From the IMG/VR virus record IMGVR_UViG_3300020051_000587, positions 1-30,084 of that record: a stretch of DNA of 30,084 nucleotides. The stretch is one strand, 5' to 3'. Both the position numbers and the translations under genes were made by a program. Shown piece by piece: positions 2,489 through 16,836 of this stretch. Each line of letters begins with the position of its first letter. Position 1 is the stretch's first letter. This DNA is from a virus. The notes beneath the pieces are model-generated. The model was given only the letters and a program-made list of their open reading frames with translations, had not been told where the DNA came from and made no database searches.

Positions 2489-2747
2489 GAAATGGGAAGT
2501 AGTACAGGGACGTAAGTCCGAGAAAGATAAGATACTTTTGTATCAAGGTCAAGCAGTTGCATTTCGTGATGTTGCAATGATGTGTATCTTCTTTATGGAA
2601 AATGAAGACAATTTGTATCCGCCCTCTCATGGGTTGAAGGGAGCAGAGATGTTTAAGGACTATATAAAAGAAGTATTAGAGACAAGATGTGTACCTACAG
2701 ATAGTAAGTACGCTATCAAAAAGAATCACGGTGTGGTGAAAGTATGA
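2481..2747 (+). CDS. Hypothetical protein, 88 residues
   Basis: Not recognised. The ATG at 2481 overlaps the end of the primase-like gene by 8 bases, so the two are probably translationally coupled; earlier in-frame starts lie deep inside that gene and are unlikely. The protein is lysine-rich at its start (MVKKWEVVQGRKSEKDK), then has a central helical part with FRDVAMMCIFFMENED, and no signal peptide. Its stop overlaps the start of the epimerase gene. Position suggests a small accessory of the replication block, but nothing in the sequence shows its role. Confidence 0.7.
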   Translation: MVKKWEVVQGRKSEKDKILLYQGQAVAFRDVAMMCIFFMENEDNLYPPSHGLKGAEMFKDYIKEVLETRCVPTDSKYAIKKNHGVVKV

Positions 2748-3682
2748 GAATTTTAATTACAGGTGCGGCTGGTTTTATCGGTAGTCACCTTGCAGATACA
2801 CTATTGGATGATGGGTTTGATGTTGTTGGATTGGACAACTTTAATGATTTCTATGACCCTTTATTGAAACATGATAGAGTACAGTATTTTGGTCACCAAG
2901 TTTTTAACTGCGACCTAAAAGACTTTGATGCTCTTGACGAAGCATTCAATAAACTGCGACCTGACATCGTTATGCATTTAGCTGCACGTGCAAATGTGCG
3001 TGACTCTTTTGGTAAGGAAGTAATTTATCACAAAGATAATATTGATGCTACTCAGAATCTTATTGAAGTATGTAAGATGTATGATGTCGCTAAGGTTGTA
3101 TATGCATCAACCAGTTCTGTATATGGTGGTACACCAATTCCAGCAACAGGTTGGGTAGAAGACGAAGTCACAGGACACCAGTTGAATGCATATGCATACT
3201 CAAAGTATGTCAATGAATGTCAGTTTAAAATATCTGGTCTAAACAATGTAGGTCTACGTTTCTTTACCGTATATGGGCCTTGGGGTAGACCTGACATGGC
3301 ACTGTTTGATTTTACTAAGAATATTGTTGCGGGTAACCCTATCGAGGCATTTAACTATGGTAAGATGAAGCGTGACTTTACCTATATCGGTGATATCATT
3401 GAGGGTATTAAGATTGCAATGTTTACTAATACTAATCCGAACGAAATTTATAATATCGGTAGAGGTAGACAAGTTGAATTGATGCATTTTATTAAGTGCA
3501 TAAGTAAAGAACTAGGAAGAGAGGCAGACGTGGTTCTCGCTCCTCGACATCCCGCTGATACACTAGAAACATTTAGTAACACAGCAAAAATAAGAGAACT
3601 TGGATATAAACCCAAAGTAAACATTGAGGTGGGTGTTGACGCATTCGTTCGATGGTACAAAGAATATTACGGAGTAAATTAA
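2744..3682 (+). CDS. NAD-dependent epimerase/dehydratase (UDP-glucuronate epimerase-like)
   Basis: An extended short-chain dehydrogenase/reductase of 312 residues. The Rossmann motif TGAAGFIG (residues 6-13) binds NAD. The active site is the STSSVYGG serine region followed by the Y150-x-x-x-K154 pair (YAYSKYVNE). Length and the LDNFNDFYDPLLK start resemble UDP-glucuronate 4-epimerases, which convert UDP-glucuronate to UDP-galacturonate. The next gene encodes a UDP-glucose 6-dehydrogenase-like enzyme, whose product would be UDP-glucuronate, so the pair could form a two-step route from UDP-glucose to UDP-galacturonate. The exact substrate is inferred. The gene starts with an ATGA overlap with the gene before it. 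Confidence 0.88.
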   Translation: MRILITGAAGFIGSHLADTLLDDGFDVVGLDNFNDFYDPLLKHDRVQYFGHQVFNCDLKDFDALDEAFNKLRPDIVMHLAARANVRDSFGKEVIYHKDNIDATQNLIEVCKMYDVAKVVYASTSSVYGGTPIPATGWVEDEVTGHQLNAYAYSKYVNECQFKISGLNNVGLRFFTVYGPWGRPDMALFDFTKNIVAGNPIEAFNYGKMKRDFTYIGDIIEGIKIAMFTNTNPNEIYNIGRGRQVELMHFIKCISKELGREADVVLAPRHPADTLETFSNTAKIRELGYKPKVNIEVGVDAFVRWYKEYYGVN

Positions 3683-4668
3683 TGAGTGAAGCAGAATGGG
3701 TAGATGGTGGTGATGGATATGAATATCCAAAGGGTTCGAGAAATGTTGACCCCAATGGAATTCCACAGGAAGTTGCCCTTAAATTAAAGATTGGTATTGT
3801 TGGACATGGATTTGTTGGTGGTGCGGTGGACTACGCATTTACCCATCCAGAAATTGAGAAGTTTTATGTTGACCCGAAATATGGGACAACTATTGATGAC
3901 CTAGTTGATTGGCAACCTCATGTATCATTTATTTGTGCCCCAACACCAATGGCAGAAAGTGGATTTGTTGATGCATCAATTGTAGAAGATGCCGCTCTGA
4001 AACTATTGGAACATACCGAAGGTGGTGTTGTTGTCAAATCAACAATTACTCCAGACATTGTTGACCGTTTATATTCGTCCGTATTTGAGGATGACATCAA
4101 ACGACTAACTATCAACCCTGAGTTCTTGACTGAGTCAAATGCGAAGGAACAGTTTGTTAATGCTAAGTATCACGTAATCGGTGGCCACCCTGACGCATGT
4201 CAAGGTCTTGCACAGTTATATGATGTGTATAGTTTATGTACCGCATCCGAGTATCTCTTTACGTCTGGCCCTGAGGCTGCGTTTGTGAAGTATGGTGTGA
4301 ACTCATTCCTTGCAACTAAGGTAACGTTCTTCAACCAACTCTATGATGCGATTCAGAAGTTTGGTTGTAACTTCCCCACGGTTGCTAATGCGATTGGTAA
4401 GGATGAGAGAATTGGTATCGGTCATACACGTGTGCCTGGTTATGATGGTAAACGTGGTTATGGTGGTGCCTGTTTTCCCAAGGATACAAAAGCATTCACT
4501 TTGTTTGATACTGACTTGACTTTAATTGAAAAGTGTGTTACTATAAACAACAATTACAGAAATAAATATGAACTAGACGAACGTGAGGAGTCAAATAATG
4601 TCAAGTATGATGGACAAGCTGAAGAAAAACAGCAAGATAAAAACAACGGAAGTACTGTCGGAGAGTAA
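3682..4668 (+). CDS. UDP-glucose/GDP-mannose 6-dehydrogenase family protein
   Basis: A 328-residue nucleotide-sugar dehydrogenase; the family oxidises UDP-glucose to UDP-glucuronate with NAD. The NAD site IGIVGHGFVGGAV appears after a roughly 35-residue extension. The NPEFLTES motif and the catalytic-cysteine motif GYGGACFPKDT (Cys264) are intact. It is shorter than bacterial Ugd (about 390-450), the carboxyl UDP-binding domain being largely absent, as in some phage homologues. The start is the ATG at 3682, which overlaps the epimerase stop (TAATG). The last 25 or so residues are low-complexity, rich in N, E, K and Q, and are read across the uvsX ribosome-binding site and start, giving a 71-base overlap; they may be a recent read-through extension. 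Confidence 0.87.
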   Translation: MSEAEWVDGGDGYEYPKGSRNVDPNGIPQEVALKLKIGIVGHGFVGGAVDYAFTHPEIEKFYVDPKYGTTIDDLVDWQPHVSFICAPTPMAESGFVDASIVEDAALKLLEHTEGGVVVKSTITPDIVDRLYSSVFEDDIKRLTINPEFLTESNAKEQFVNAKYHVIGGHPDACQGLAQLYDVYSLCTASEYLFTSGPEAAFVKYGVNSFLATKVTFFNQLYDAIQKFGCNFPTVANAIGKDERIGIGHTRVPGYDGKRGYGGACFPKDTKAFTLFDTDLTLIEKCVTINNNYRNKYELDEREESNNVKYDGQAEEKQQDKNNGSTVGE

Positions 4669-7416: not shown

Positions 7417-7658
7417 TGGATTATGTATGGCCAATATCAACCGTGGTACTTATGTTCATATCCTACTGGGTCGGTAAGATTCATGGGTTTGTGCATGGCG
7501 AGGACGAGGGTTTCAATGAAGGTATTAAACAAGGAACTCCTGTAGTTGCAACCGCAATACTACGATGGGTGCGTCAAGAAAAGGATATAAATATCAGTGA
7601 CCCTGAAATTAAAGAAATAATCGATAACATAAATGTTGAATGGAAAAATGATAAATGA
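7416..7658 (+). CDS. Small single-pass membrane protein
   Basis: Eighty residues, not recognised. The start overlaps the helicase stop (TAATG) and the stop overlaps the thyX start (ATGA). Residues 5-20 (WPISTVVLMFISYWVG) form one membrane segment, followed by a His/Asp/Glu-rich stretch (KIHGFVHGEDEGFNEG) and a soluble acidic tail. A TATAAATA match at 7586 falls inside this gene. Confidence 0.72.
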   Translation: MDYVWPISTVVLMFISYWVGKIHGFVHGEDEGFNEGIKQGTPVVATAILRWVRQEKDINISDPEIKEIIDNINVEWKNDK

Positions 7659-9009: not shown

Positions 9010-9546
9010 ATGATTATGAAAAGACTAGTGATAGGAATCGCTGTGCTCAGTATATTGGGTTCAGTATCAGGCGCAACAGAAAATAACGTTGAAATCCCGT
9101 TTATCTATTCAGATAAAGCCGTTCAATGTCTTGCACTCAACATCTATCATGAAGCACGGAACGAATCCTTTGCAGGACGAGTTGCGGTTGCTGATGTGAC
9201 AGTAAATCGCATGTATGATAGTAGATATCCGAATACGATATGTGGTGTTGTACATCAAGCGAAACTGAGTAAATGGCATCTTGAACAAGGACGTGAAGTA
9301 CCACTGAGACATATGTGTCAGTTCAGTTGGTATTGTGATGGAAAGTCTGACCAACCCAATGATGGAGACAGTTGGTTAAAGTCGAAAAGATTAGCACAAA
9401 ACTTCTTGACTTATGGGGAATTTCGTGGTATAACAGAAGGTGCAACACACTATCATGCAACCTATGTCAAACCTGATTGGGTTAATGACCGTGGTATGAG
9501 TATGGTGGGTAGTATCGGTGAACATATATTTTATAGGTGGAACTAA
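9010..9546 (+). CDS. Secreted SleB-type cell-wall hydrolase
   Basis: A 178-residue protein of the Hydrolase_2 (SleB) family, which cleaves peptidoglycan glycan strands. The family opening CLALNIYHEARNES is clear, with the likely catalytic glutamate E48, followed by AVADVTVNRM, the CQFSWYCDG cysteine segment and GATHYHATYVKPDW. A signal peptide (IMKRLVIGIAVLSILGSVSGA) should send it through Sec, so it could act as an exported endolysin without needing a holin, or as a periplasmic wall-loosening enzyme. Two starts are possible, ATG at 9010 or 9016; both lie at the predicted transcription start, so the message would be leaderless or nearly so. It has its own promoter. Confidence 0.88.
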   Translation: MIMKRLVIGIAVLSILGSVSGATENNVEIPFIYSDKAVQCLALNIYHEARNESFAGRVAVADVTVNRMYDSRYPNTICGVVHQAKLSKWHLEQGREVPLRHMCQFSWYCDGKSDQPNDGDSWLKSKRLAQNFLTYGEFRGITEGATHYHATYVKPDWVNDRGMSMVGSIGEHIFYRWN

Positions 9547-10964: not shown

Positions 10965-11010
10965 TAGAAGTCAGGTAGACTTAACAAAGTAACAAGGGTG
11001 TGGATGTGTC

Positions 11011-11196
11011 ATGAAAAAGACAAAAAGAATAAAATCCCGTCACGGGAATCTGTTGTTTGACAACAATAGTCCTTTTAAACAAAAGGTAGTACTCGATAAA
11101 ACGAAGTACAACCGCAAAAAGAATCCCCGCAAAGTCGGGGATTTTTCTTATTGGTCTTTATTAAATTCTCTAAAGGGTCTAACCTTTCCATCATAG
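11011..11196 (+). CDS. Small basic protein whose stop lies beyond a terminator
   Basis: Sixty-one residues. The basic first part (MKKTKRIKSRHGNLLFDNNS, then PFKQKVVLDKTKYNRKK) looks like short basic proteins seen in marine T4-like phages; no function is known to me. A strong intrinsic terminator (11116-11146) lies inside the frame at codons 36-46, and the stop codon is 48 bases further on, antisense to the end of the converging gene. Transcripts stopped there would have no stop codon. The last 17 residues may therefore be rarely or never made. Confidence 0.55.
   Translation: MKKTKRIKSRHGNLLFDNNSPFKQKVVLDKTKYNRKKNPRKVGDFSYWSLLNSLKGLTFPS
11116..11146. terminator. Bidirectional intrinsic terminator
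   Basis: Stem AATCCCCG (11122-11129) pairing with CGGGGATT (11136-11143), loop CAAAGT, with an A-run before and a T-run after, so it works as a terminator on either strand. It separates the plus-strand bS21 unit from the converging minus-strand gene. Confidence 0.9.
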
Positions 11197-11486: not shown

Positions 11487-11494
11487 TATAAATA
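11487..11494 (+). promoter_or_regulatory. T4-type late promoter motif driving the curli-like operon
   Basis: An exact TATAAATA (followed by CCTAC). In T4 the motif covers -13 to -6, which puts +1 at 11500, the A of the first ATG of the operon, so the message would be leaderless. No sigma70 -35/-10 pair of similar quality is seen in the gap. Confidence 0.6.
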
Positions 11495-11499
11495 CCTAC

Positions 11500-11781
11500 A
11501 TGGAAAATGCATTTACTCTAATCAATGAATTGGGGTTTCCTATAGCCGCTGCACTGATTGGCGGTTTCTTTATGTTTCTGACTCTCAAGTATATAATGGA
11601 CGGTGTTATTGGTCAGGTGAAATCTATTCGTGGAATAGTGGGAAGCCTTGATAACCGTGTAAAAACTATGAATCATGATATGGTTCGTATGGACACAACT
11701 ATGTGTGTTGTTCTGGGAATAAGACCAGACCTAACCCGCATCAGTAGAGCTAATGGTAAAGAAGATGCGAGACGAGACTAA
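11500..11781 (+). CDS. Small membrane protein with coiled-coil tail (A)
   Basis: Ninety-three residues, first gene of the curli-like operon. Residues 8-33 (INELGFPIAAALIGGFFMFLTLKY) hold one membrane helix beginning with a GFPI turn, followed by an amphipathic, heptad-like segment (VKSIRGIVGSLDNRVKTM). The next gene encodes a protein of the same plan, with the same GFPI start, so the two look like an old tandem duplication. Holin-like size and shape are compatible but not diagnostic; they might also be inner-membrane partners of the CsgG pore. The ATG coincides with the predicted late start. Confidence 0.72.
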   Translation: MENAFTLINELGFPIAAALIGGFFMFLTLKYIMDGVIGQVKSIRGIVGSLDNRVKTMNHDMVRMDTTMCVVLGIRPDLTRISRANGKEDARRD

Positions 11782-12032
11782 TGATAGAATTTATAGACAG
11801 TATAAAGTCTTTCGGGTTTCCGATAGTATCAGCGGTGGGTATGCTGTATATGATTTACTTCGTGTGGAAAACAATCACCGAAGAAGTCGAGAAGAACTTA
11901 GATGATACACAAAAGACCTTAATTGGTTTGATTGACAGAATAAGAATGTTAGATAATGATATCATCCGATTGCAACAGAAACTAGATACTGCAATCGAAT
12001 TAAAGAGAAAACAAGATGAAGAAAATAACTAA
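11781..12032 (+). CDS. Small membrane protein with coiled-coil tail (B)
   Basis: Eighty-three residues. The ATG overlaps the stop of the gene before (TAATG). Layout repeats that of its neighbour: a membrane helix opened by GFPI (FGFPIVSAVGMLYMIYFVW), then a longer coiled coil (LIGLIDRIRMLDNDIIRLQQ). It probably sits in the inner membrane with the helix near the amino end. The gene overlaps csgF by 17 bases, so it is part of the same unit; function unknown. Confidence 0.72.
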   Translation: MIEFIDSIKSFGFPIVSAVGMLYMIYFVWKTITEEVEKNLDDTQKTLIGLIDRIRMLDNDIIRLQQKLDTAIELKRKQDEENN

Positions 12033-12504
12033 GTTTACCGTGATTGAAAAAATAGAATCGATTATATTATTGGTTTGTTTTGGACTTATGTTTTTTGTGT
12101 TTGCCGAAGTTTCGGCTGCACCGATTGAACATAAGTTTAAATCGCCGTCATTCAGTGGAGTGAACACTAGTTCTCATTATTTAACAATTGAGAACCAAGA
12201 AGCATCTCGTAAACAAGCCATAAAACAAGAGATAAAGGAATTACAGGAACAATTGGAAAGGGATGCTGAGAATACCACCCTTGCAAAATTTATTAGAAAT
12301 GTGGAAAGTAGAATTTATTCTACCCTATCACGACAGATTGTAGACAGTATGTTCGGCGAGAATCCTAGTGATACGGGTTCATTTAACATTGAAGGTACAG
12401 GAATATCATACGTCAGAAATGGCGATAGTGTGGAGTTAACAATTACAGATGAGAATGGTAATACGACTGTTATCGTTATTCCTCTTGGGGACTTTGGTAT
12501 CTAG
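12016..12504 (+). CDS. csgF: CsgF-like curli assembly factor
   Basis: In curli (type VIII secretion) systems CsgF is exported and its first residues plug into the CsgG pore from the cell surface, widening the constriction and tethering the nucleator. Here, a signal peptide ends in FAEVSA/APIEH, and the mature start HKFKSPSFSGVNTSSHYL follows the CsgF pattern F-x-N/S-P-x-F-x-G. Then come a helix (TTLAKFIRNVESRIYSTLSRQIVDSMF) and a beta end GDSVELTITDENGNTTVIVI that matches the CsgF tail. An extra charged helix of about 30 residues is present between the plug and the neck. The gene overlaps csgG by 56 bases. Confidence 0.88.
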   Translation: MKKITKFTVIEKIESIILLVCFGLMFFVFAEVSAAPIEHKFKSPSFSGVNTSSHYLTIENQEASRKQAIKQEIKELQEQLERDAENTTLAKFIRNVESRIYSTLSRQIVDSMFGENPSDTGSFNIEGTGISYVRNGDSVELTITDENGNTTVIVIPLGDFGI

Positions 12505-13264
12505 TTGTACTTCTCTCGGTAGTGGAAACTTTGAGATACCACAGAGAGATGAACCAAGAATACAGGAAACATTACTCCAACAAGAACTGAAGAATGTTTC
12601 TAGTCCGAAGAGGAAACCGACAGTAGCTGTGTATCAGTTTACTGACCAGACGGGACAGAAAAGACAAAATAGTGGTGGTGGAACTTCGTTTAGTTCTGCG
12701 GTAACACAAGCACCTTCGGTGTACCTAATACGTGCATTGAAACGTGCAGCGAACGGAAATTTCTTTCGTGTTGTAGACCGTCAAATTATTGACCATGTCA
12801 CTAGAGAAAGACAACTGATACGTCAAACTCGTCAAAGTTACGAGGGAGATGAATCTCAGAAATTACCAGCATTAACGTTCGCTGGGATGATAATTGCAGG
12901 AGGTATAGTAGGATACGATACTTCGATTGACACAGGTGGCGCTGGTGCTAGATACCTCGGTATTGGAGCGTCCCGTGAATTTAGTATTGATACTGTGACC
13001 GTAAATATACGGTTAGTGTCAGTTGCAACAGGCGAAGTCTTGCTTGATGTAATAACAAGTAAGACCATACTATCCACGGCTTTTGGTGGGGATGTATTTA
13101 AATTTATAGAGCAGGGCACCCAACTGGTTGAGATTGAATCAGGGGTGACTCAAAATGAAAGTGTTTCCATAGCGACCCAACGTGCTATAGAAACGGGAGT
13201 CCTTGCGCTCATTAATCGTGGAAACGACATGGGGTACTGGACATTTAACGGAGAAAATAAATGA
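12449..13264 (+). CDS. csgG: CsgG-like outer-membrane secretion pore lipoprotein
   Basis: CsgG forms the nonameric outer-membrane channel for curlin export. The 271-residue protein begins with a lipoprotein signal ending LVSSC (C20). The core follows CsgG closely: VAVYQFTDQTGQK, FSSAVTQAPSVYLIRALK, FFRVVDRQ, GYDTSIDTGGAGARYLGIG (the best-conserved CsgG block), VNIRLVSVATGEVL, TSKTILS, and AIETGVLALINRG near the end. The constriction loop after DQTGQ is two residues longer than in E. coli and is glycine-rich (NSGGGTSF); the phenylalanine of the eyelet appears kept, while the tyrosine and asparagine do not. The start overlaps csgF; no strong ribosome site, so coupled translation is likely. Confidence 0.95.
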   Translation: MRMVIRLLSLFLLGTLVSSCTSLGSGNFEIPQRDEPRIQETLLQQELKNVSSPKRKPTVAVYQFTDQTGQKRQNSGGGTSFSSAVTQAPSVYLIRALKRAANGNFFRVVDRQIIDHVTRERQLIRQTRQSYEGDESQKLPALTFAGMIIAGGIVGYDTSIDTGGAGARYLGIGASREFSIDTVTVNIRLVSVATGEVLLDVITSKTILSTAFGGDVFKFIEQGTQLVEIESGVTQNESVSIATQRAIETGVLALINRGNDMGYWTFNGENK

Positions 13265-13983
13265 ACGTTAGGCATTTAAGTTTTGCTATGATGTTCGTAA
13301 TCGGTTTTGCGTATGCAGACAATGAAATATATATTGACCAAGTAGGAGATGGGTCTTCGATTGACATCGTACAGGATGGTTCGGGGAACGTGATTGGTGG
13401 TTCTGCTTCAGACACCACTAAGATGTTACTTTCGGGTAGCAACATGGATTTCAATGTCAACATGACTGGTTCGGGTAATACACTGATAGGTGATATTATT
13501 GGTTCTGGAACTATCGTTGACCTTGATATCAATGGTTCGAGTAATGACCTGTTATTTGATATTGATAAAGGAAATGTGTATGGAGCTACCAATGGCGATT
13601 ACTTCATTAATATCACTGGTGGTAATAACGCTTTAGACTTTGATATTGGTTCGATTGATACTGCCAACGACTTAGACTTTGACTTTGTCTTGGATGGTGA
13701 TTTTAACACTGGAGACATTAATATTGATGCGTCAGGTTTGACATTCAATATGGATGTTGTAGGTGATAACAGTAACTTACTTTACAATGCTAGTGGTTAT
13801 GATGGACACAACTTTGTGTTGAGAGGCATTGGTAGCTATTGGAATATAGAAGTAAATCAAGAATCAACTTTACAGTCTGATTCGTTGGAGATAGATTATG
13901 ATGGTGACGGAACAAGTGCGACAGCGAATACTATTTGTATTAGTCAGTCTGATTCTGGTCTTAACTCCAACTGCGGTAACTAG
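13261..13983 (+). CDS. Secreted curlin-like beta-repeat protein (candidate substrate)
   Basis: A 240-residue exported protein starting with a signal peptide cut near AYA/DNE. The mature start carries two curlin-like strands, IYIDQVGDG and IDIVQDGSGN, which fit the I-x-I-x-Q-x-G-x-x-N pattern of CsgA/CsgB repeats. Further on the repeats drift to short alternating strands closed by G/S-N/D turns (VNMTGSGNTL, INITGGNNAL, MDVVGDNSNLL). It is very rich in Asp, Asn, Gly and Ser and nearly free of Lys and Arg, as expected of a beta-solenoid or amyloid. Two cysteines end the chain (CISQSDSGLNSNC). It starts with an ATGA overlap on csgG, which makes it the obvious candidate cargo. Not certain to be amyloid. 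Confidence 0.78.
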   Translation: MNVRHLSFAMMFVIGFAYADNEIYIDQVGDGSSIDIVQDGSGNVIGGSASDTTKMLLSGSNMDFNVNMTGSGNTLIGDIIGSGTIVDLDINGSSNDLLFDIDKGNVYGATNGDYFINITGGNNALDFDIGSIDTANDLDFDFVLDGDFNTGDINIDASGLTFNMDVVGDNSNLLYNASGYDGHNFVLRGIGSYWNIEVNQESTLQSDSLEIDYDGDGTSATANTICISQSDSGLNSNCGN

Positions 13984-15019
13984 TGCTGACGTAGGCGCAG
14001 TAGATAAAGCGGTTGGTTGGAGACAGATTGTTCGTGATTTGAACAAGATTGAACCAAGGGCTGGTTCGGATATAGCACCCAAGGACGACCTTCGCACAGG
14101 TGAGGGACGGATGCAAGTGTCTTTTGTTGACGATAGTAAACTTCGTATGACAGAACATACTCGCATAGTTATAGACAACGTAGTATTTGATGAAGACCCA
14201 AGTAAGTCTGATTTGGCAATGACCTTTGCTCAAGGTACGGCTAGATTTATATCTGGTCAACTGGGTAAGGTTGATAAAGAGAATATCAGACTCAAGACCC
14301 CGACCGCATCTATCGGTATCCGTGGAACAGATTTCACGGTTACGGTAGATGAGTTTGGGAAAACTTTGGTTGTACTTTTGCCTGACGTAAACGGTATCTC
14401 CTCGGGCGAGATTATCGTTTCAACAATGACAGGTGAAGTAGTACTCAACAAACCATTTCAATCTACCACAACAACCGTTGCCGAAGTGGCCCCAAGTGAA
14501 CCAGCAATCCTAGATTTGACTCTGGATATGTTGAACAACATTATGATTATCAACCCACCTAAAAAGAAAGAGACTCAAGAAGAGTTCATGGCAAATGTCA
14601 GTGCGACCAAGAATATCAACCCTCTTGACGTAGACTTTTTAGACCAAGACTTGTTAACCGAAGAAGAACTAGAGAGGGACTATCTAGAATTCAATGAACT
14701 AGATATCAACTACTTAGATGTTGACCTACTCGAAGACTTATTGGATAGTTTCGATTCATTGGGTGAAGATGTGTTGAAAGAACAAGAGTCTACAGGTGAA
14801 TTATCTCTCAGTGGCACCGAAGAAGGATTTGATACGGTTACTCAGGTTGCAACCATTGTAGATGGTGACAAGGTTACTTTTTCTAGAAACGTCAGTGACA
14901 TTGCAGAGGTTTCGGTAGATAAGACATCATCAACTTTAATAACAATAGAACAAGACGGAAAATCACTAGACCCCATTAAATTAAACGGCCAAGATACTCA
15001 GATAAATATAGTACAATGA
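13898..15019 (+). CDS. Secreted FecR-domain protein
   Basis: A 373-residue exported protein. The ATG at 13898 has GGAG 7 bases upstream; the signal peptide is ILFVLVSLILVLTPTAVTS. A FecR domain covers about residues 45-150: IAPKDDLRTGEGRMQVSF, DDSKLRMTEHTRIVID, TAFSQG-like FAQGTARFI, then the hallmark TPTASIGIRGTDFTV. The middle is acidic and Leu/Asp-rich. The last 30 residues carry curlin-like strands ITIEQDG (from residue 348) and a final INIVQ. FecR domains in the periplasm usually relay signals to membrane partners, and genes for FecR proteins are often found beside CHASE2 cyclases in bacteria, as here. It overlaps the repeat-protein gene by 86 bases and the cyclase by 4. Confidence 0.9.
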   Translation: MMVTEQVRQRILFVLVSLILVLTPTAVTSADVGAVDKAVGWRQIVRDLNKIEPRAGSDIAPKDDLRTGEGRMQVSFVDDSKLRMTEHTRIVIDNVVFDEDPSKSDLAMTFAQGTARFISGQLGKVDKENIRLKTPTASIGIRGTDFTVTVDEFGKTLVVLLPDVNGISSGEIIVSTMTGEVVLNKPFQSTTTTVAEVAPSEPAILDLTLDMLNNIMIINPPKKKETQEEFMANVSATKNINPLDVDFLDQDLLTEEELERDYLEFNELDINYLDVDLLEDLLDSFDSLGEDVLKEQESTGELSLSGTEEGFDTVTQVATIVDGDKVTFSRNVSDIAEVSVDKTSSTLITIEQDGKSLDPIKLNGQDTQINIVQ

Positions 15020-16836
15020 AGACATGGCACGTTCTTATCACACTGGGGTTGATGGTAGGATTACGATTTCTTGACCCCTTCCTATTAGAGAGTGCTAGAC
15101 TCTCTTTCTTTGATTCCCTTCAAAGAAACCAAGAAACATCTATCTCAGAACAGATTGTACTGGTAGATATTGACGAAAAGACTTTAGATAAGTTTGGTCA
15201 ATATCCAATTCCCCGTAAGGTCATGGCAGATGAGATTGATAAGATTGATGGTAGTATTATTGCATTCAATATCTTGTTCTCAGAAGAAGACAGAATGGGA
15301 GGCGATGAATACTTTGCAGACATTCTATCTTGGAAACAATCGGTGGTTGCTATTGCACCATCCAATAGAACCAACACAGACTACCGACCACCCCGTATCG
15401 GAACTGCAACCTTTGGTGACCGAGATGCCGAAGACTTCAGACCCGAACTGCCAGGCATGTTATTTGCACAACCAATCATACATGAGAATGTATTTGGTTA
15501 CGGAACGATATCATCTACACAGGATGTTGATGGTATCACAAGAAGACAACCTCTATTGGAAAACTTTGATGGAAGACTCTATCCCGCATTTGGATTAGAT
15601 GTTCTCAGGGTTGCCGCAGGAGACTCATCTTATCAGATATCCACGGATGAATACGGAATCAAGTTTGTTCGTGTACCACAGTTTAAAAATATCATAACTG
15701 ATACTAGTGGTAATATCACTATCGCATACTGGAATGAATTTAAGAGATACTCGTTCACGGAACTAGACACTATACCAAAAGGCAGTATAATCGTGATTGG
15801 AGCGAACTTTGAGGGTTCTAGTATAGTTGCGACACCCGTGGGGTCAATGTATCCTCATGACATTCAAGCGAACATAATCAAGACTATGATTGATGGTGTC
15901 GTTTTAAAGCGACAGGACGAATTTATTTTCTATGAGGTCTTGACAAGTATCATACTTTCTGTTATACTATTAGCTTTTATAACCTATGCACCAATAAGTG
16001 TATCTGGTATGACGTTTGGTGTCATACTAGGTGGATTATATTACTTTGCCAACGATACCTTCTCAACCTACTATTATATGGTTGACCCTATATTCCCTAT
16101 ATTAACGTTAGTAATAATATTTGCACATGGTTCCTTTGTACAGTTCTACACACAGTTTAAAGCTAAACAGATGATTAAGGGTCAGTTCGGAACTTACCTA
16201 TCACCCGACATGGTAGACATGTTGGCAAAAGACCCAAGTCTCATGAAGTTAGGTGGTGAGAAGAAAGAGATGACGTTTCTGTTCATGGACATATGTGGAT
16301 TCACCCCCATATCAGAACATTACAAAAACAAGGACGATGCGGAAGGATTGGTCACACTTATTAATAACTATCTTAATGAGATGACGAAAATTATCCTAAA
16401 TAACGGTGGTACAATCGACAAGTATATGGGCGATTGTATTATGGCATTTTGGAATGCACCTTTACCCTGTAAAAATCACGCAGAGATGGCAGTTAGGTCT
16501 GCAATAGAAATTGAAGAGAAAACGAATGAACTCCGAAGACAATATAGTGAACAGGGTCTACCCCCCATCAATGTTGGAACTGGTATCAATACAGGTACTT
16601 GCATTGTTGGTAATATGGGTAGTGAGTCACGGTTTGATTATTCAGTCATCGGAGACGCAGTCAACCTTGCAGCAAGACTCGAAGCAACCGCAGCTCGAGG
16701 AGACTACCTTGAATACAAGACCATCTACTCTAGTTTCACAATGGAAAAACTCACCACTATTAATTCGAGACCAATAGGTCAGATTAAAGTGAAGGGTAAG
16801 GAGGAAATGATTGATATCTTTACAATGGACAGATAA
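15016..16836 (+). CDS. CHASE2-domain class III nucleotide cyclase (probably adenylate cyclase)
   Basis: A 606-residue membrane enzyme expected to make cAMP from ATP. One amino-terminal helix (residues 5-20) leads into a periplasmic CHASE2 sensor domain (about 30-300; FFDSLQR, VLVDIDEKTL, PIPR segments). Three membrane helices follow (about 305-385), then a cytosolic catalytic domain (415-606). Metal-binding aspartates are D425 (FMDICGFT) and D473 (DKYMGDC); the transition-state pair is N550 and R554 (GDAVNLAARLE). The base-selecting positions are K469 and S543; a Lys with Thr/Ser is usual for bacterial adenylate cyclases. All catalytic residues are present, so it looks active. It is last in the operon, joined by ATGA to the FecR gene. 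Such an enzyme is very unusual in a phage. Confidence 0.94.
   Translation: MKTWHVLITLGLMVGLRFLDPFLLESARLSFFDSLQRNQETSISEQIVLVDIDEKTLDKFGQYPIPRKVMADEIDKIDGSIIAFNILFSEEDRMGGDEYFADILSWKQSVVAIAPSNRTNTDYRPPRIGTATFGDRDAEDFRPELPGMLFAQPIIHENVFGYGTISSTQDVDGITRRQPLLENFDGRLYPAFGLDVLRVAAGDSSYQISTDEYGIKFVRVPQFKNIITDTSGNITIAYWNEFKRYSFTELDTIPKGSIIVIGANFEGSSIVATPVGSMYPHDIQANIIKTMIDGVVLKRQDEFIFYEVLTSIILSVILLAFITYAPISVSGMTFGVILGGLYYFANDTFSTYYYMVDPIFPILTLVIIFAHGSFVQFYTQFKAKQMIKGQFGTYLSPDMVDMLAKDPSLMKLGGEKKEMTFLFMDICGFTPISEHYKNKDDAEGLVTLINNYLNEMTKIILNNGGTIDKYMGDCIMAFWNAPLPCKNHAEMAVRSAIEIEEKTNELRRQYSEQGLPPINVGTGINTGTCIVGNMGSESRFDYSVIGDAVNLAARLEATAARGDYLEYKTIYSSFTMEKLTTINSRPIGQIKVKGKEEMIDIFTMDR

Follow-up and report, generated by a model that had tools for sequence, protein, structure and literature searches.

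The window, the whole 30,084-base stretch of a marine bacterial-virus record that was analysed here, encodes a CHASE2 receptor protein which is very likely a functional adenylate cyclase. Judged by gene content and order, its gene closes a viral operon for curli, or type VIII, secretion. The sequence-only reading of this DNA had described the cyclase but omitted the curli operon at whose end it stands. Our leading interpretation, tentative and somewhat short of evenly balanced, is that a working membrane adenylate cyclase acts as the output of a viral curli operon transcribed late in infection, in which the FecR-domain protein would report the state of the pore or fibre. Viral curli clusters with FecR and an adenylate cyclase were already reported in 2022 (PMC9599517), and the central claim of the earlier reading, a phage-borne receptor cyclase, is therefore not new. 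New here are the adjacency of FecR and cyclase in bacteria, the curlin-like tail of FecR and the late-type promoter box before the operon. The coordinates of all features are compiled in Table 1.

Table 1. Features of the curli operon and its cyclase gene in the window
Feature	Position	Strand	Evidence
Terminator-like hairpin with T-run, likely upstream operon boundary	11119..11146	+	11-pair stem; consensus match only
TATAAATA box of the T4 late promoter type, 13 nt ahead of S1	11487..11494	+	consensus match; recurs in viral loci
Small protein S1 (93 aa) with a single hydrophobic segment and a helix-like tail (by eye)	11500..11781	+	relatives precede csgF
Small protein S2, 83 aa, layout like S1	11781..12032	+	relatives; Pfam matches only below cut-off
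CsgF, curli assembly factor	12016..12504	+	PF10614, E 6.4e-18
CsgG, outer-membrane curli pore lipoprotein	12449..13264	+	PF03783, E 8.2e-48; phrog_20175
Curlin-like fibre subunit with I-x-I-x-Q strands	13261..13983	+	Curlin_rpt 0.015 (below cut-off); strand motif
FecR-domain protein, 373 aa, N-terminal signal-like helix	13898..15019	+	PF04773, E 1.2e-11
Final eight FecR codons, encoding the curlin-like strand DTQINIVQ	14993..15016	+	tail motif conservation
CHASE2 receptor adenylate cyclase, 606 aa (ATG at 15016, stop at 16836)	15016..16836	+	reading frame, residues, Pfam, conservation, model, fold match
CHASE2 sensor domain with flanking helices, residues 10-317	15043..15966	+	PF05226, E 1.2e-36, above Pfam cut-off
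Catalytic domain of class III cyclase type, residues 416-599	16261..16812	+	PF00211 Guanylate_cyc, E 8.6e-20, above cut-off

The predicted adenylate cyclase

Class III cyclases share two metal-binding aspartates, a base-selecting lysine with a serine, threonine or aspartate, and a transition-state asparagine and arginine. The pairing of the lysine with T, S or D indicates the use of ATP rather than GTP. All six residues named in the sequence-only reading (D425, K469, D473, S543, N550 and R554) were present in the window protein, and its K/S pair matches class III adenylate cyclases. With this residue set and a cyclase fold the protein belongs to class III. Pfam likewise agreed with the proposed CHASE2 domain, and the whole protein matched phrog_35576 (E 5.1e-192), a phage family without assigned function.

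The active site was conserved in an alignment of the window with 82 viral loci (L002 to L083; L001, which is the window itself, and L084 were dropped). D425, K469 and D473 were invariant in 83/83 sequences. One viral copy ends before S543, leaving 82 for the remaining positions: R554 was present in all 82 copies that reach that far and N550 in 81, while position 543 was occupied by S in 78, T in three and D in one. The cyclase of phage Melnitz (L083, 8971-11022) is the sole copy of the 82 with D at 543 and S at 550 and sits on a long tree branch; this enzyme may differ in activity or in the base it selects.

Against five relatives the cyclase gene had a dN/dS of 0.07-0.11, lower than that of the curlin gene (0.16-0.19); FecR ranged from 0.09 to 0.13. 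Together with the retention of the active-site residues across viral copies, these values indicate that the reading frame did not arise by chance. The ratios for CHASE2 (0.065-0.079) and the catalytic domain (0.061 and 0.076; the third catalytic pair gave no computable value) were similarly low.

The AlphaFold2 model of the cyclase (mean pLDDT 87.2) began with a helix at residues 5-19, which was followed by a sensor domain of the alpha/beta type, three more helices (303-324, 327-352 and 359-391) and the cyclase fold. This is the layout of CHASE2 receptors, i.e. an N-terminal helix, CHASE2 and three helices before the output domain, with the helices seen in the model only. The three membrane helices predicted earlier hold for the C-terminal side of the sensor, but the model adds a fourth at the N-terminus. 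The catalytic domain aligned with that of Pseudomonas aeruginosa CyaB (3r5g, catalytic domain only; Z 25.0, rmsd 1.7 over 185 residues, 43% identity), the best-matching solved catalytic domain, and the structure matches listed for the model covered the catalytic half or the last helices running into it. CyaB, a membrane-bound adenylate cyclase, has a different sensor in place of the CHASE2 of the phage protein. In the sequence alignment the base-selecting residues of CyaB are K and T, the T standing where the phage protein has S543. Residues, selection, fold and likeness to CyaB make the protein a very likely functional adenylate cyclase. The class III alignment and the structure model, both suggested as checks in the sequence-only reading, agreed with a cyclase, and domains, residues and conservation support its description as a phage-encoded, membrane receptor-type enzyme with a complete active site.

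Distribution among viruses

The expectation that such a cyclase is rare in phages was not borne out. At least 598 IMG/VR stretches encode a relative, the best 80 of which were kept for analysis (44-100% identical), and so do the isolates HTVC008M, a Pelagibacter phage, and Melnitz, a Methylophilales phage, whose proteins are 45% identical over 99% and 36% identical over 91% of the window cyclase, respectively. The search for homologues, another proposed check, consequently ruled out that no related phage has the protein. A tree built from 28 phage and 43 bacterial cyclases placed the two groups on either side of one branch (SH-aLRT 100), consistent with a single ancient acquisition. A contig labelled Acinetobacter phage MD-2021a (L084, CAKLQH020000011.1) was rejected as a phage relative since genes of cellular housekeeping (mfd, isc) surround its cyclase; it is probably bacterial DNA.

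Gene order of the viral curli operon

In the window, a pair of small, apparently membrane-bound proteins, CsgF, CsgG, a curlin-like protein, FecR and the cyclase are encoded in this order on one strand. The curlin-like gene stayed below the Pfam cut-off and was recognised by its position and strand motif. The curli genes of pelagimyophages and of Melnitz have been described before (PMC7029224, PMC9004378), and the succession CsgF, CsgG, curlin, FecR and cyclase is that of the viral type VIII secretion cluster of pelagiphages (PMC9599517), and of HTVC008M and Melnitz. The window differs from HTVC008M and Melnitz in its higher G+C content (41%) and in the absence of a second curlin gene separating FecR from the cyclase; the FecR stop and the cyclase start consequently overlap by 4 nt. 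This overlap, with nothing between the genes, recurred in 14/60 loci, all of the window's own group. In most other loci 0.3-2.3 kb separated the two genes, and in HTVC008M and Melnitz this interval contains the second curlin-like gene.

The arrangement is strongly conserved. FecR preceded the cyclase in 60/60 viral loci whose upstream sequence reaches 2500 nt or more (22 of the 82 loci have less and were left out), and FecR, CsgG and CsgF all preceded it in 50/50 loci with at least 5000 nt upstream. Curlin-like cargo genes were retained in 49 of these 50. CsgE (PF10627), a component expected of bacterial curli systems, was found in 0/8 phage records including the window, some of which are fragments; Alphaproteobacteria are also reported to lack CsgE (PMC3521004).

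The two small proteins occupy the place where PMC9599517 puts a "histidine kinase, sometimes two". With 93 and 83 aa and no match to a kinase domain, they do not look like histidine kinases. S1 had no match in Pfam, PADLOC or NCBIfam.

Operon boundaries and probable timing

Terminator-like sites numbered 14 between positions 11000 and 17500 against 3.4 expected, and one of them probably bounds the operon upstream. The box before S1, TATAAATA, is what we take to be the T4 late promoter consensus. It occurred within -120 to +9 of the first operon gene in 32/51 viral loci, where about one was expected from its overall frequency of about 0.02 per stretch; loci with less than 130 nt upstream or without CsgF were left out. 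Before other genes it was found in 7/53 (CsgF), 0/61 (FecR) and 4/78 (cyclase) cases. The enrichment before the first gene makes a single late transcript spanning S1 to the cyclase probable. Because the box is so near the start codon that almost no leader would remain, S1 may actually begin at a codon further downstream. The window contained five copies of the box, all on the plus strand, with 1.5 expected; those at 7586, 10957, 23663 and 26018 are further possible late promoters.

FecR and its curlin-like tail

The model of FecR (mean pLDDT 69, weak in the middle) matched the periplasmic signalling domain of PupR with residues 60-216 (6ovk, Z 14.7). Residues 29-100 matched the cell-surface anchoring domain of an antifreeze-protein adhesin (5ix9) with a middling Z of 7.1 over 72 residues at 1.9 A, a similarity for which the FecR sequence profile gave only E 0.16.

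Within the C-terminal 90 residues of 19 viral FecR proteins the only invariant columns were G310, R330, I371 and Q373, the last two in the terminal strand. The pattern [IVLAF]-x-[IVF]-x-Q, which is that of the curlin-repeat strand, ended all 56 viral FecR proteins longer than 330 aa (61 in the set, five of 330 aa or less dropped). The strand motif had a density of 1.75 per 100 aa in viral curlins versus 0.04-0.39 in the neighbouring families, and it was found at none of the C-termini of the cyclase (73), CsgG (57) and CsgF (50) and in 0/38 bacterial FecR partners. Strands of the two proteins can be near-identical, as in DNEITIQQ of FecR and DNEINITQ of curlin. A profile comparison of FecR C-termini with curlins was not significant by itself (E 0.052, 10 columns, probability 1%), and the likeness is accordingly regarded as a strong pattern and not as proven homology.

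CHASE2 cyclases, FecR and curli in bacteria

A scan of species genomes yielded at least 80 bacterial loci with CHASE2 cyclases 31-35% identical to the phage protein. The flanking DNA of the best 80 was searched with HMMs made from the viral families. Among the matches listed, a FecR-domain protein was encoded near the cyclase in 37/80 loci, the flanks of the other 43 showing none. In 25 of these 37 loci FecR was directly adjacent to the cyclase, where random positioning of FecR within each locus's set of genes would predict 6.5, and in 22 of the 25 it lay on the same strand just upstream. The adjacent pairs came mostly from Bradyrhizobium and its kin, and therefore do not represent 25 independent events, but also from Thalassospira, Microvirga, Oleispirillum, Hyphomicrobiales and two Omnitrophota. 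Six FecR proteins near bacterial cyclases were scanned for domains: three consisted of FecR alone and three bore RTX repeats, one of these with additional cadherin and Ig domains. By this composition the RTX-bearing proteins look like type I secreted adhesins. In an Afipia locus a type I ABC exporter is encoded between FecR and cyclase.

Among the same listed matches, CsgG, CsgF or curlin occurred in 0/80 cyclase loci. Bacterial curli loci were collected from CsgF matches above cut-off, which were obtained in 5/385 alphaproteobacterial and 6/369 gammaproteobacterial genomes; the sixth gammaproteobacterial match, at a contig end, and one alphaproteobacterial match below cut-off were left out. 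Neither FecR nor a cyclase was present in any of the resulting ten loci (five from each class), and the two genes were rejected as parts of bacterial curli operons. With 80 cyclase loci free of curli genes and ten curli loci free of FecR and cyclase, the phages unite two modules that are found apart in bacteria.

Several known systems resemble parts of this arrangement. CyaD1, CyaD2 and CyaK of Sinorhizobium meliloti also combine CHASE2 with a class III cyclase and act with the outer-membrane beta-barrel protein NsrA (PMC13001267); alphaproteobacterial CHASE2 cyclases differ from the phage proteins, which form a separate tree group, in their lack of neighbouring curli genes. The BiofilmReg operon of Burkholderia likewise pairs a periplasmic protein bearing a FecR domain with a neighbouring CHASE2 receptor, but the output of that receptor is a histidine kinase and its FecR protein carries LysM (PMC5192318). 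The term CHASE2 is absent from PMC9599517. A literature search, covering mainly open articles and few subscription papers, preprints or supplements, returned no treatment of this phage CHASE2 cyclase and none of the FecR of a curli system.

Proposed mechanism and alternatives

In the mechanism that we favour, the operon would place CsgGF in the outer membrane late in infection and export curlin-like subunits. FecR would be held in the periplasm with a tail strand able to join the curlin stack, and as the periplasmic partner of the cyclase it would convey through CHASE2 what condition the pore or fibre is in and so set the cAMP level. An engaged or jammed pore, or the presence of a fibre, might thus lead to the formation of cAMP from ATP inside the infected cell at a late stage; the sign of this signal could also be the reverse. 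No cAMP-binding protein (PF00027) was found in the window or in seven long phage records, and a phage-encoded receptor of this type was rejected. The receiver would accordingly be of host origin, or a phage protein of another kind, and cAMP would presumably act through the host's own cAMP-binding proteins. Of the roles suggested in the sequence-only reading, a response to a periplasmic cue and an effect on the cell surface fit the operon, whereas catabolite control and motility do not gain from it; the probable late promoter speaks for a late role.

The earlier reading also allowed for a plain source of cAMP which reprograms host metabolism, motility or surface through CRP-type regulators, FecR and curli being mere neighbours. 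The intact active site agrees with this, and PF00027 proteins are encoded in 7/7 searched bacterial genomes with CHASE2 cyclases. We nevertheless consider it unlikely, given the linkage of FecR to the cyclase in every viral locus with sufficient upstream sequence and its frequent adjacency in bacteria, a CHASE2 domain as strongly constrained as the catalytic domain, and the late-type promoter box. That box, on the other hand, suits the proposal of the Melnitz authors that the CsgGF pore serves lysis or its timing (PMC9004378), in which case the cyclase would report or time pore opening. The small membrane proteins S1 and S2 in front of the operon and a cell wall hydrolase at 9010-9546 point the same way, but S1 and S2 match no holin family and the curlin-like cargo, superfluous for lysis, is kept in nearly all loci, which makes a lysis pore distinctly unlikely.

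PMC9599517 interprets FecR as iron-dependent, and the module might then tune curli, or uptake through the pore, to iron or ferric citrate. The resemblance of the FecR fold to the PupR signalling domain agrees with this suggestion. It is rendered improbable by the scanned window proteins, which include neither a FecA receptor nor a sigma factor of the FecI type, by the RTX adhesins in which some bacterial FecR domains near such cyclases reside, and by the curlin-like viral tail. Least probable by far is a Pycsar-type defence or interference system producing another cyclic nucleotide. PADLOC models of PycC did match the protein (best E 2.8e-25), but only over residues 400-583 of the catalytic domain; the CHASE2 receptor layout and the curli and FecR neighbours speak against such a system, and none of the five neighbouring operon proteins scanned with PADLOC matched an effector. 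Membership in Pycsar was rejected on these grounds.

Returning to the curli-sensing cyclase, a more specific version holds that phages joined curli secretion to an adhesin-linked pair of FecR and CHASE2 cyclase by means of the curlin-like FecR strand, the sensor reading the phage's own fibre or pore and giving late cAMP. We regard this version as possible, though rather doubtful. If true, the phage would carry a self-contained checkpoint of surface assembly. The curli genes of abundant marine phages lack an agreed purpose (PMC7029224, PMC9004378), and with the FecR partner shared with bacterial CHASE2 cyclases, its curlin-like tail and the late box, what appeared to be an extra cyclase plus an iron regulator becomes a single sensor circuit that can be tested. 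The observations also bear on CHASE2 itself, whose signals were called unknown in a 2016 paper (PMC5192318).

Further features of the window and its relatives

The window carries T4-like genes for DNA polymerase, UvsX, a DnaB-like helicase and ThyX. The cell wall hydrolase (Hydrolase_2, E 9.3e-23), possibly a lysis enzyme, is encoded about 2 kb upstream of the operon. One viral relative contains two tRNA-Arg genes. Adjoining genes for a nucleotide-sugar epimerase and a UDP-glucose dehydrogenase at 2744-4668 of the window represent a further possible cell-surface function.
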